DNA of 64,000 nucleotides, from assembly GCA_030272585.1 (NCBI GenBank), contig BSYQ01000004.1, positions 4,526,001 to 4,590,000 of the forward strand, read 5' to 3'. Positions 46,440 through 53,549 of this stretch are shown here, one piece after another. The position numbers and the translations under genes were made by a program. The notes under the pieces are model-generated. The model was given only the letters and a program-made list of their open reading frames with translations. It was not told the DNA's origin and searched no databases. This DNA comes from Bryopsis sp. KO-2023 (lineage: Eukaryota; Chlorophyta; Ulvophyceae; Bryopsidales; Bryopsidaceae). Numbering within the stretch: the stretch's first letter is position 1; each line of letters begins with the position of its first letter.

Positions 46440-46869
46440 TATATATTTGTATCCGTTGCGGGATGGTCGGGGTGGTGGTGGGGGGGGCTCTTCTTTTAGA
46501 TATAGCTGTGTACAGAAAGGGACATACTAGGAAAGATCTGCCAGGAGGAACTTGTACGATTTCGTGTAATTTATTAACCACTCATCTCAGTCAATGATTT
46601 GAATTTGTATTGCAAACACACCCTTCCCAGAAAGTCGGTGAACTTTTTGTTGCACAAATCACAGTGTGACGGAGAAAAATCCATCGACGCAGAAATAAGA
46701 ACCGACCATGGTTGGTCAGAATCGCGTTCCTCACTATTTTCGCTTTTGCTTGTAATCCGTTGCACGCAAAATACAACTCACACCGCCCACTCCCAGTGGA
46801 GTCGTGGAAAACAGACAAATAGCGATTTAAGAAAGCGCAACACAGAACTTGTGTTCGCTTCCATGTAAC

Positions 46870-48698
46870 ATGAAGCGAGGTCTGGATGCGATCAGGCCAA
46901 GAATTGGCAATTCAAGCTCGTGGTACCGCCACAGGCAGTCCGCCAGTGACTCCCAAAAGCGAGTCCAACTGTGCACTGGCGGTACGCATGCTCTGGTGTG
47001 AGTGTGTTGGAAAGCGGTCACGAAAGGGGCTGTTTCCATGGATTAGTTACATAAAGCGGTCTTTTCTCACACGTCAGTGGTACCGCAACAGGTAGGAAAT
47101 CATAGAAAAGGGCTCTTCCTCGACATCCCCCAGTTTTTCGACCGCGCGGCTTTGCTGAGGCTGGAGGACCAGTTCCCAGACATCCTTGCCGAGGCACGAT
47201 GCAGATGAACCGTGACGCTGTTCGAAGCAACTTCCCCGCTTCGAGAATGGAGTCTCAGACGGTGCGCTTCTGCTGTCGAAAGAAACCAACCACCAAGCAA
47301 ACGAGGGCAAGTCCGCGCTGCTGTGTGCTTCGAAGCGGCTCTCTTTTTTTACACGGCCTGTTGCTTTCTTGTTCCTGTAGAGCGCAAACAGTGGAAACCC
47401 CGCCATCAAGAGGAGGGTCCGAAAGAAGCCATACTTGTCCAGGCGCAAAAAAGCCGAGGTAACACACGAAGCATGACGTTCGTGTGTGTATGTGTGTGTG
47501 TTTTTCTCTCTTTTTGCTTGCGTTTGCTAAATCAGCGGGCTCCCAAATCACCACCTTCGTTCTTCGTATGAACACTGCTGACTTCTTGCTGTGTGTGTTG
47601 ACAGATCGCCGCCAGGAAAAGGGACGAGACGCCGCCGGAGTACAGGAACCCGGCTGCGGACCTTGAGGAGGAATTGCGTCTCCTCAAGCTGAGCCTGTTG
47701 GAGAGCGAAGATGACGAGCCTCCACACGCTCCCGAGAAGCTGCCACCCACTCTGGTATGTCTGGACACAGAAAATTCCTGTGGTGTTGGCCAACAACTTT
47801 GACTGCAGTGTCGTGGGAGGAAAATCTTGTGTTACTGTTTGCTCACTCTATTCTGTGCGACCATTCAGGAAACTCAAAACAGCGGCTCGACGTACTACGA
47901 TGAAACGGAACCCTTCTGCCTCGTCAAGCCAAGTGGGGCGATCCACATTTACGACCCCGTCACCGGAATCTTGTCCGATGACGTCTCGCCTCTGAGCTCC
48001 AACATCCCAGAGTCACCCTTTGGTCCAGGTAAAAACCTCTTTTCCCTCATAACTGAGTCGCTATTTTTTCTGCATTGCTTCTCGGAGTACGTAACCAGAA
48101 CTCTTGCTAACTGTTTGCCGTTTTCGCTTTCCGACATCCATCATGTTCTGGTCGCAGCCCCAATCGAGCCGGAAAGCCCAGTTCAGCACCAGTACGCCCC
48201 TCCCGGGCCTTACCCACAGAGCATGTGGATGAACCAGTCGATGCCGTACTATGGTATGCCAAATCACCCTCCTCCACCACCTCCGTATCCTCCCTACAAC
48301 TACATGCAGTGCCCCCCGCCTTGCTACCCGCCGCACGCGCAGTTCAACGGCATGATGCCTTACCAAGGTGCGTGGTGGTCTCAGCCACATCAGCAGCCTT
48401 ATTATCCCCCGCCGCCACCACCTCCTCCTGTACATCAGAACAGCTACCACCAGAACCAGGTGAAACATTCACTGGTCCCCTTATTGTGTTTTCCCTCAAA
48501 TCTCCCTTTTAAATGGAACTTAAACCATACCATACACCATAGTACCGAAATTTCGTCTTTCAATTCATGAAGAGTAGTGTTGAGGTCTCGTGCTTTTATT
48601 AATTGATTGTGTGGTTGTTGATTCAGAGCCTTACGTCGAAGGCGACGTCGGTCTTTCGTGCAACCAAGGGATCCCAACAGAACTCCTCTCGAAACTGA
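46870..48698 (+). CDS. Proline-rich protein of unknown function (one junction unresolved)
   Basis: Readable exons: 46870-46981 (MKRGLDAIRPRIG), a stretch after cgtcag near 47080 encoding KGLFLDIPQFFDRAALLRLE and QFPDILAEA, then 47381-47458, 47605-47754, 47869-48028, 48158-48459 and 48627-48698 (stop TGA). The last five join in phase. They encode a basic stretch (IKRRVRKKPYLSRRKK), an acidic helical stretch (LEEELRLLKLSLLESEDDE), a compact piece with CLVKPSGAIHIYDPVTG, and a long Pro/Tyr/Gln-rich region with runs of P next to YPPYNYMQ. Between about 47200 and 47380 the frame of the second piece stops (TGC AGA TGA) before any usable GT donor. Either an exon boundary is non-canonical or two genes meet here. 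Polyproline suggests binding to SH3, WW or profilin partners; that is inference. Confidence 0.5.
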
Positions 48699-49719
48699 CG
48701 CCTGGACGCGAGCTGGACTCTTTGGTGGAATTGCTTCCTTCTTCGACTATTATTGGAGCCATTAATACTTTGTTGCCCACTTTGATGCCCCCTGTTTATT
48801 GAGCCTGAGGCTCTCAAAATTTGAGTGATGAAATCTGCCCCCTTTTTTTTGTGTTTGTGTTGTTTGTACAGTTTTTTGGCAGTCGGTCTGTGTTTTTTGC
48901 TTGAGTTTTGATGCTGTAGTGGATGACTGCTTCATCCACGTGATCGATCGATCCTGGAACATTGGATGGTTTGTTCTGGGTGTTGCTTTTCTTCGATCAC
49001 CAATGGGTATGTTTTGGGATACATTGTATGAGGTCTTGCAGTAACGAAGGTCTGGAAGTTTTGAAAAAAAAGGTGACTAATTTGGTTCACCTGGCAGCAG
49101 CTGGAAACCTTTTTTGAAAAAAGCTGCTTGAAGAAGGAAAAAGAGTCAGGTTTTTGGGGGCAGTTTTATGGGGGCAATGATGCAGTGTTGAGGAGATGAA
49201 AAAAAGATGCGGAGATTTGGTTGTCACACGAAAGCAGTTTGTGTGTAATTGAGGTGGTTTTTCAAATGGACTTGGTACAGTGCCTGTGCACATATGAGGG
49301 TATCTTGCATGACAGACTGGTCCCATTCAATTATTCGATTCCAATGCATCCTGCCTGCATCTACAAAAGTTACTGAAGAAAAGAATCACTTATGTGAACC
49401 AAATCCTGAATATGCTAAGCATTGCAGTTCACTTCAAAGTTTCCCTCAAAACTTGCGATAATTTTGCAAGTTTGTCGAGACGGGGACCTCCTCCTTGTCC
49501 CCCGAATCTTAACATAACCTACTCTCAAAATAATATATATGCATATATATATATATATATACATATATTGAGCTTATTTCTGAACCACCACGTGGCAGAA
49601 TGGTGTGTAGATTTTGCTTGTCCTGAACATCCCTACGTCATTCGAAAAAAGAAAAATATACAAGTATATACAAGTGACTGCGCTGCGGCGCCCAAACGTA
49701 GCCAAGCAGATGCCACAAG
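48699..49719. other. Intergenic stretch, no gene seen
   Basis: About 1 kb between the proline-rich gene and the kinase-like gene, both on plus. It has T- and G-rich low-complexity sequence, a TA-repeat near 49532-49566 and no supported frame. The promoter of the kinase-like gene should lie here. Confidence 0.5.
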
Positions 49720-52700
49720 ATGGAGGAGCGGCGAAACTTCTACGAGAAGCTGCAAGATTTCCATCGTCAGGAGGTTGTATACTCTGATGAAGTCGCAGGG
49801 TACAGTTGCCAGCTTTGGTGCAGAGGGGTTGACTGCGTTTGACCCGTTGCCATTTTCACACAACAATCTTATTTTCCATTCTCAGGCACCAGGGTGGCTT
49901 GATAGTTTTGAAAATACCAATTCCATTTTTTCCTTGAAAGAGTTAACCATGAGTGCCAGAATTTTTTTATTGTTACGGGAATGATACAACATACGTTCCA
50001 CATATGTTGAAAAACTGAAACAGTTGAGGATCTTTTTTCTTATCCACGAATAATGTTAATGGAGGGGGCCATTGATAAAGCTTTTTTCTTAGGGGTTGCA
50101 GACCATTGGGTCTTGGTTTTTTCAGGAAAAAAAAAAAGTTTCGTTTTCTTTTACGAAACTGCAAAAGAAGGCCATCACCCCCGGGACCCCATGATGCCAG
50201 AAAGTCACAAATAAAAAGGCAAACCCACAGATTTCCGATAAAAGCAAAAGAAAGAAAGAAAGGAAAACTCCAACATCCATCTCTACTCAACAATCCAAAA
50301 TTGAACAATTGGGTTCACAGACGGGCGACTGAAAATGAAACAAATGAATAGATTGTTCAATTCCCGACGAAATTTACTCTCGTAACCATCCTCGTTGATG
50401 TATGCAGATACGCAATCTACCGAGCTCGATGCTGTTACTCTGATGCCATAGTGGCGCTGAAAATATACACCCTCCAAAAACTGAACAAGGAAAAGAAGGA
50501 ACAGGTCTTAAGGGAGGTGGACATCACTTCGAAGCAAGATTGTCCTTTTTTCATCAAATGCTTCGACGCCTTTGAAGATGGGGACAGCTGGGTCCTCGTT
50601 TTGGAACACTGCGCTGGGGGTGATCTGGGAAGCGTCATGGATTCTTGCTACGACCGCGACCATGGCTGGGTAGCTTCGCAGGTGTCCAAAACAGCCAATC
50701 CACGAGCGCCATGAGCAGAACCCACCCACACACACACAGTTTCTGATAGCTTTTGTTGTTGTGGCAAGGTTGTATACCTCCTCCTTCAGACAGTCCAGTT
50801 CCTACACTCCAAAAGCTACGTCCACAGAAGCATCGACCCCCACCACGTTTATTTCAACTCGTCGGGCATTGCAAAACTCACAGGGTTTCACAACCTGGTC
50901 GACACCCAGCTGGTGGCTCCACGAGAAGCTGTGGGACTGCTGCCCTACATGGCTCCGGAAATGGTTCGAGCGGAGCGATCCAACATCAGGACCCCGTACG
51001 ACTGCAAGGTCGGGCACTTTTCCAGTAGGTAATCCCAATGGGAACGGGCCCCCTTGGAATTTCCTGAAGAGAGTGTGCGAACCTAATGTATCGTTGAGTG
51101 CAGCCTGTTTTCTGGATAGCCCTACATTCTATCGAATACGTTCCTTGTGTGAAAATGCGATTGCATTCGTAAACTGTGCAATGAGACAACCTTTCTTGCT
51201 TCAGGTCGATATTTGGTCCCTTGGCGTTATGACGTTCGAACTACTGGCAGGGCATCTGCCCTTCGAAGACGACAATCTCCAGGTTCTTGCCGACAAAATC
51301 ATCGCGTTCGAACCAGAATATCCAAAGCACTGGTCTCCGACTTTGAAGGATTTCATGAAACTGGTGAGAATACGCTCGCTTGGAAGCGAGCGTCACGAAT
51401 GGTTCAGAGCAGCAGTTTCGTTAAGCATTCAATGCTGGAAAAAGAGGCTCCAATTCCAACGCAGAGTTTGATCTACCAATTTCAGGCGCTTCAAAAAGAC
51501 CCCTATGATCGTGCCACCGCCAGCCAGCTCCTGGAACACCCGTGGGTTCTCAACAGAATCAATTGGACGCCGGACGAGGATTTTGAAAACCCAGTGGTTG
51601 TGGAGGAGGGTCGAACGGAGAGCGAGACGCTAGAAGAGTTTCAGGTGTGTTGGGCACGCAGCTAATTCTTGCTGCGTCTGTGATTGGGTTTTGGCGATCT
51701 CCTCAACACCAGGTTTTTCTACTTCCAGGCCAAGCCAGACGGCATCCTCGCCAAATTATGGAAAGCGACCTGGAGAAAAGTCTTCAAGAAGGAGCAAAAC
51801 ACAGAGCAGAATCCTGCTAAAGGAGACGGTAGATGGCAAGCAGGAGTCAAAGCCAAAGCCAAACCATTGATATCCCCATTCCACGGGTACAAAGCTGTTC
51901 ATTGTTGATGAAATATGCAGACGCAGTAGTGCTGGCGAAAACAAACGGGACAAAATGCATGGCTTTGTTTTTGATAATGTCTCTTTTTCGTCCAGGGAAT
52001 CGGTATCTACTGAGGCTGAGTCCAGCCAGGAGCTGTGCGACGATACTTTCAGAATCGCCGCCGAATTGGAGCCGAATAGCGTCTTGACGATGATGCCTCC
52101 AGACGGAGGCGAAAAGATGCATGAAGTCATTCGAATGACTGACATAGGGCCGTCCGAGAGCGACGACGTGCATTTCCTCCCAAGCAAGTGCCCCCCAAAA
52201 AAGGACGCTGACGACTCTCACATAGATTTGCCCAGTACGTTATTAAAAGTTTGGGCTCAACGCGATTTCAAGCGATTTCTTCTCCCCAGTGTTGCATTTT
52301 GAATGGCGGCTAGTATCAATGCTTGCTCAACCCTTGTGTCTTTGCACTATTTCAGGTTCGTCTATCGGTTTCGAAACCCCTCGACTGACTCAGCAACCGC
52401 GTTCTGGCAGCAAAGCAAAGGTAGGCAGTCCGCTTTCTGGAAACTTGGCCTTCTTCTGGTGCATCCCCAACATCAATCGCCAAGAAGAGGGGGGCTGGCA
52501 TTCAAGTCCTTCTCGGCATCCACTCCACTGAATTTTCACACCTCAACTGTGGTGTTTTGCTTGAATTTTAGGTGCACCCCTTCGCCTTTGATTCCAGCTG
52601 TGAAGAGACGCTGGTGGACATCATTCCTCAAGCCCCCACCCCGACTCCGACCCAAAAAAGACCCAGCAACACCAGAACTCCAGACCCCACCCCCTCCAGT

Positions 52701-52997
52701 CCAGAGCCTGCCCAGAGAGCTGTCGAGATGCAGATGCAGTACGTCAATTCAAGAAGAATCATCTCAGCTCCTTTTGGCTTTGCTTTCAAATCTCAATGGA
52801 AAGTGGATTGCGGTCTATAATTTGTAGACCTCACCACTGTGCGTTCTACCCTGTGGGGCCACACCTGACGAGTGAATAATATCAGCTCAATTAACTTTTT
52901 TTGTTCCAACAGGCCGCCGGCCACACGAAAGCCCAAGGCAAAACCTTTGACGATCAGCGAGAGCACTATAGCAAGCCTACTACTAGATGATCCATAA
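49720..52997 (+). CDS. Protein kinase-like protein with degenerate catalytic motifs (predicted pseudokinase)
   Basis: Ten exons, all phases consistent: 49720-49799, 50408-50681, 50769-51008, 51205-51363, 51486-51644, 51729-51886, 51996-52234, 52356-52420, 52572-52738, 52913-52997; 541 residues. The kinase fold spans about residues 15-290: the VAIK lysine is present (IVALK, Lys45), as are the helix C glutamate (LREVDI, Glu63), APE (YMAPEMV, Glu182), the F-helix VDIWSLGVMTFELLAG and a C-terminal HPWVL. The glycine loop is poor. The catalytic HRD aspartate is Ser (YVHRSIDP, Ser139), the following catalytic lysine position is Asp141, and DFG reads GFH (KLTGFHN, 157-159). Phosphotransfer is therefore unlikely, and a scaffold or allosteric role is inferred. 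The C-terminal half is a disordered tail rich in Ser, Pro, Thr and acidic residues. I cannot name the subfamily. Confidence 0.85.
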
Positions 52998-53549
52998 GAC
53001 TGGACAAAACATTTCCACTCAAATTATGATGCCATTTTTTTAATAATAAGGGCTGGGAAGATGCGGAGTTCATATGAAATATGAACACCTATTTCTATTG
53101 TCGATAGAATTTTCAAAAAAACACCAAGTATTTTGCAAAATCCTACTTGTGTGAGGCTTATGCTATTCGTTGGCAGCAAAAAGCCATTAGGTACCTCAGC
53201 AACATCTCTTTCATATTCATGCGGGCTGTTTTTGTAACACCCTGTTTCTTGGAGGAAAAAAGGAGGGTGGCTTTTTTAGGTTTTGTAATCTTCTCATCCA
53301 CACGATTCAAACCAGGAAGAGATCTTTAAAGCAGGCCTATCAGTGCATCTGTTTCTACAAGAATTGTGCCCCTGTTTCTCATTTCTCAGCACACCACCCC
53401 CACTACATCGAAGCATTCCCAAAACGAAAAAAAGAAAACTGTCTATTTTTTTCATTTGCACAGAAACAACTTGGTCGTGGTTCGACCTGCTCCTCAATTG
53501 CCACTTGAGTGCCCGTATCCAGACAGACATGAGTGTCATGAGAGCTATG
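52998..53549. other. Convergent 3' region
   Basis: The pseudokinase gene (plus) and the NIPA gene (minus) end toward each other here. Small open frames overlap the NIPA 3' flank in other phases and carry no domain signal. Confidence 0.5.

Follow-up and report, generated by a model that had tools for sequence, protein, structure and literature searches.

A predicted pseudokinase in an Aurora-like clade of the green alga Bryopsis carries STRADα-like substitutions

The window analysed here is a 64,000-nucleotide stretch of DNA from the green alga Bryopsis sp. KO-2023 (contig BSYQ01000004.1, positions 4,526,001 to 4,590,000 of the forward strand), and it contains a kinase gene on the plus strand at 49720-52997. 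As an earlier note on this DNA had proposed, the gene is modelled with ten exons; every intron is bordered by GT-AG and the exons join into an open frame of 541 codons. Exon 1 (49720..49799) holds the start codon and the N-terminal part, exon 2 (50408..50681) the N-lobe, exon 3 (50769..51008) the catalytic loop and activation segment, and exon 4 (51205..51363) the F-helix from VDIWSLG onward, with the kinase fold ending in exon 5 (51486..51644). Tail sequence occupies exon 6 (51729..51886), which encodes a basic amphipathic stretch, LAKLWKATWRKVFKKEQN, at residues 311-328, and continues through the acidic, Ser-rich exon 7 (51996..52234), exon 8 (52356..52420) and the Pro/Ser/Thr-rich exon 9 (52572..52738) to exon 10 (52913..52997), which supplies the C-terminus and the stop codon. 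Fed residues 1-300 of the protein, a spliced aligner reproduced exons 1-4 without deviation and placed the start of exon 5 correctly, which is a measure of self-consistency and no independent proof.

Upstream of the kinase gene, open reading frames match the second propeller of POC16/WDR90 (PF23393, E 6.9e-18, 65.3 bits, cut-off 60); a match to the CFA20 domain scores 21.7 bits, under its cut-off of 24. The centriole-gene neighbour that had been called suggestive is therefore real as a location, but proximity is no evidence of function and the neighbourhood is a circumstantial hint. Downstream lies an exon of a NIPA-type magnesium transporter on the minus strand. Between POC16 and the kinase gene, the sequence from 48602 to about 49.5-49.6 kb has four further copies elsewhere in the genome, at 89-93% identity (C11:1043035, C11:1347472, C3:5700460 and C8:3076520), and for the two copies on contig C11, which were the ones compared further, the likeness extends back to about 46.8 kb (window about 46816-49632). 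Each C11 locus also holds a 92%-identical piece of kinase exon 4, joined in one locus by part of exon 5, and these pieces sit next to, or run directly into, window sequence from ~46.8 to 49.6 kb that is present there in inverted orientation; the two loci are 95% alike to each other over 4.6 kb. Given this content, we rejected the C11 copies as full paralogues. The exon fragments are by-products of duplication.

The encoded protein matches the Pfam Pkinase profile with an E value of 3.1e-40 (138.7 bits, cut-off 31.7), and inspection of individual residues confirmed that the framework of the fold is retained: Lys45 of the VAIK motif (codon 50460-50462) and Glu63 of helix C (50514-50516), both in exon 2 with positions counted from the exon borders, APE at residues 180-182 (50952..50960, exon 3) and the F-helix DIWSLG from Asp200. 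In exon 3, HRSIDPHH (50823..50846) replaces HRDLKPEN, such that H137-R138 are followed by Ser139 (50829) where HRD has Asp, the catalytic-loop Lys position is Asp141 (50835) and the Asn position is His144 (50844), and G157-F158-H159 (50883..50891) stands at the DFG position. The loss is somewhat wider than had been stated, as His144 and a glycine-loop stretch with a single glycine, SDEVAGYAIYRA, are additional to Ser139, Asp141 and GFH. If a pseudokinase is a kinase-fold protein that has lost at least one of the VAIK Lys, HRD Asp and DFG Asp, Ser139 and Gly157 place this protein among them, and the pattern singled out in the earlier note, both catalytic aspartates lost with the Lys-Glu pair kept, is upheld. 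Pseudokinases account for about 10% of the human kinome according to PMC4718504. Restoring D139, K141, N144, D157 and G159 would take at least 2+2+1+2+2 = 9 base changes, all within exon 3. Scanning 49000-53500 in six frames for HRD, DFG or [YV]RD[LIV]K gave no match; on these two grounds we ruled out a sequencing error, or other exon edges that restore the motifs, as the cause of their loss. The tail, 257 residues from residue 285, is indeed long, with a high content of Pro, Ser and Glu, but its SP/TP pairs are not enriched (7, compared with 5.3 on average after shuffling, P 0.27).

We searched the alga's own genome (91 Mb, 28 contigs) exon by exon for kinase relatives, modelling 20 loci first and then 51, and built a tree from 30 of the 51 and the window gene. 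Of the first 20, L024 and L025 had the highest scores. The window gene falls in a clade of eight kinases from this genome, together with L024, L026, L033, L042, L064, L065 and L069. Four trees recover its place there, with support of 99/97, 97/95, 95/97 (the tree without the motif columns) and 98/95. HRD and DFG are intact in four members (L033, L064, L065 and L069) and altered in the others, which read HRN/DFM (L026), VRD/DLF with both Asp kept (L042), HRA/CFL (L024) and HRS/GFH (window). L026 and L042 share with STRADα and the window protein a His at the catalytic-loop Asn position. Because the intact L033 pairs with L024 in a 38-row tree (97/87; the pairing was unresolved in two earlier trees), the alterations probably arose in three separate lineages: the window gene, L024 and the L026/L042 pair. 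An aromatic residue two positions after the VAIK Lys, Tyr47 in the window protein, occurs in all six other clade members readable there (L024 is not) and in none of the 24 readable among 27 other rows. The helix E pattern V[VA]xP[LI][LV] is found in all seven other clade members and in none of the 27 other rows; the window protein reads VVYLLL, lacking the Pro. Searches with L026, L033, L069 and L064, which score exons apart and of whose matches a part was modelled, found no further member, and the clade size is accordingly a lower bound. In a scan of viral contigs (one of eight scans), four stretches fit a pattern and none was confirmed as a close relative. Elsewhere among the kinase models, L040 (C4:6757000-6761500, minus strand) has LKN and GFV at the HRD and DFG positions and is another possible GF-x pseudokinase, and L034 and L068 carry HSD and D[LM]G-type motifs.

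The name Aurora-like comes from PDB searches with four of the eight members, two of which have Aurora A as their best match. For L069 and L024, the best 60 chains listed for each are Aurora A; L026 matches RAD53 first and Aurora A next; the window protein matches STK10 (3e-33) and SLK first and then Aurora C. A sister relation of the clade to Aurora was not recovered in the 38-row tree, and in the trees the window gene does not group with L025 and L063, the loci taken as Aurora. The window protein is identical to L025, labelled Aurora by eye, at 82/251 positions, which is about equal to its identity with STK10 (81/256) and L069 (84/259), and appears to differ from Aurora in having lost catalysis. 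The intact clade members presumably resemble the algal Aurora-like ALK/CALK kinases. CALK, an Aurora-like kinase of Chlamydomonas, is reported in PMC7077844 to be required for ciliary disassembly.

Among 15 queries tried in spliced alignment, STK10 scored highest (286), with L069 at 279. A profile of the seven other clade members scores the window protein at 170.0 bits and the four intact ones alone give 150.6, versus profiles of STE20 plus STRAD (145.1), STE20 (140.8), Aurora (136.8) and AGC (116.0), the groups being of unequal size. The window branch is long (1.4-1.5). When STRADα, STK10 and ULK4 were added to the tree, the window protein stayed in the Aurora-like clade with 97/95, or 95/97 with motif columns dropped, and on these 35 rows the approximately unbiased (AU) test did not reject its placement with STRAD (p 0.258, or 0.162 once the motif columns were removed), STE20 (0.113 and 0.123, respectively), Aurora (0.083) or ULK4/Fused (0.078). 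After addition of OSR1, PAK1 and MST2, which brought the tree to 38 rows, OSR1 became the partner of STRADα (100/96), and a retest covering the STRAD and STE20 placements rejected both (window with STE20, p 0.007; window with STRAD, p 0.020); the Aurora and ULK4/Fused values are those of 35 rows. STK10 and SLK, the STE20-group kinases that head the PDB matches of the window protein, have active motifs, unlike the window protein. ULK4, described as a pseudokinase with a ciliary role, resembles the window protein in having a kinase fold with altered motifs; it groups with L066 of this genome (100/98, 38 rows), whereas the window gene does not.

The earlier note knew no named family with HRS-I-D plus GFH, a statement that STRADα does not bear out. 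According to PMC2686265, in human STRADα Ser195 replaces the HRD Asp and His200 the Asn, and DFG reads GLR; the protein binds ATP without Mg2+, with Arg215 and His200 tethering the beta-phosphate and the retained catalytic-loop Lys197 contacting the gamma-phosphate, and it activates LKB1. We matched these motifs against the STRADα sequence (PDB 3gni, 2wtk). The two proteins share HRS, the Asn→His swap, DFG→G-x-basic and a damaged glycine loop. They differ in that the VAIK Lys is lost in STRADα and kept in the window protein, whereas the catalytic-loop Lys is kept in STRADα and is Asp141 in the window protein; moreover, STRADα belongs to the STE20 group, and its WEF motif (for MO25) was looked for and not found in the window protein. 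The parallel was noticed post hoc among many known pseudokinases and was recorded before the trees that tested it. Searching the genome with STRADα gave 39 matches at E values up to 0.01, none of them at the window gene, and exon 3 alone searched against the PDB did not bring up STRAD among the best 60 of 128. In view of the 38-row rejection of the STRAD and STE20 placements, the STRADα genome search and the missing WEF motif, we read the pocket likeness as convergence, with caution given the long branch, the several tests and the dependence of the outcome on sampling. In the part of the literature searched, no report emerged of an Aurora-like clade with an inactive branch whose pocket resembles that of STRAD. 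If this reading is right, one set of pocket swaps would have arisen in two unrelated kinase groups, and the metal-free ATP pocket of STRADα would be a repeatable evolutionary outcome.

Judging from its residues, the window protein is most likely a regulatory pseudokinase rather than an enzyme. We favour, with reasonable though far from full confidence, the interpretation that it is a catalytically dead member of the Aurora-like clade in which the two-lobed fold persists as a protein-protein switch. The kinase domain might be locked by a nucleotide held without a metal ion through the Lys45-Glu63 pair, and by analogy with STRADα, ATP is possibly bound without Mg2+, as His144 and His159 stand where STRADα has His200 and Arg215. 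So locked, the domain would dock on a partner kinase, perhaps one of the four intact clade paralogues, and allosterically set its activity or place, while the long tail may carry docking or phosphorylation sites. Since a single genome contains four intact and four altered members, the clade offers a natural series for losing catalysis while keeping the fold.

An ordinary ATP pocket is hard to reconcile with Asp141 and the degenerate glycine loop, and they raise the fairly unlikely alternative that the fold serves only as a binding surface and is nucleotide-free, as stated for VRK3, whose substitutions prevent ATP binding according to a published abstract. The single-glycine loop, the loss of the Asn and both Asp, and the placement of Asp141 near the phosphate site would all fit such a scaffold; however, Lys45 and Glu63 are kept, and a pocket-free scaffold needs neither. 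Extending the favoured reading of a dead, fold-keeping switch in the opposite direction, the clade may have independently evolved the full STRADα solution, with metal-free ATP held through His144 and His159 and activation of an intact paralogue, perhaps at the centriole or cilium. We consider this extension improbable; if true, allosteric activation by a nucleotide-gated pseudokinase would have originated a second time, in an unrelated group.

It is rather improbable that the gene is decaying and without function. The exon 4-5 fragments on contig C11 would suit decay, as would the exon 4 changes among the window gene and both C11 fragments, 10 nonsynonymous and 5 synonymous, against an expectation of 78% nonsynonymous if every single change were equally likely; these numbers are small, and 5 of the 15 changes are not assignable to a branch. 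Compared with one C11 copy, however, the exons differ at 14/248 sites (7/159 and 7/89) and the intron and flank at 15/131, a weak hint of constraint. The 541 open codons and intact splice sites across all ten exons argue against a dead gene, and APE, the F-helix, Lys45 and Glu63 are retained. That the protein still works as an atypical kinase whose catalytic residue has migrated is very unlikely: Asp141, two positions away from the missing Asp, could be imagined as the base, and CASK, WNK and IRAK2 are cited in PMC2686265 as active despite lost motifs, but this protein has lost the metal-binding Asp along with the catalytic Asp, Lys and Asn. Orthology with STRAD, for which the shared swaps, the STK10 match, the unrejecting 35-row tests and a Mo25 gene on contig C5 of this genome could be marshalled, is scarcely credible and was rejected on the 38-row result, the lack of WEF and the absence of the window gene from the STRADα matches.

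Several other features were seen elsewhere in the assembly. Ten ubiquitin-like stretches, 37-68% identical to ubiquitin, lie at C17:134906-198226, and nine fall within open frames of 279-355 amino acids. Polyubiquitin repeats have a 76-codon spacing and lack the insertion known from Rhizaria, which weakened a rhizarian reading of this DNA. On contig C24 (L013), three 18S matches lie about 12.45 kb apart, the 18S being divergent by eye with short degenerate repeats beside it. Among the matches listed, TTTAGGG repeats occur at the start of contig C1.
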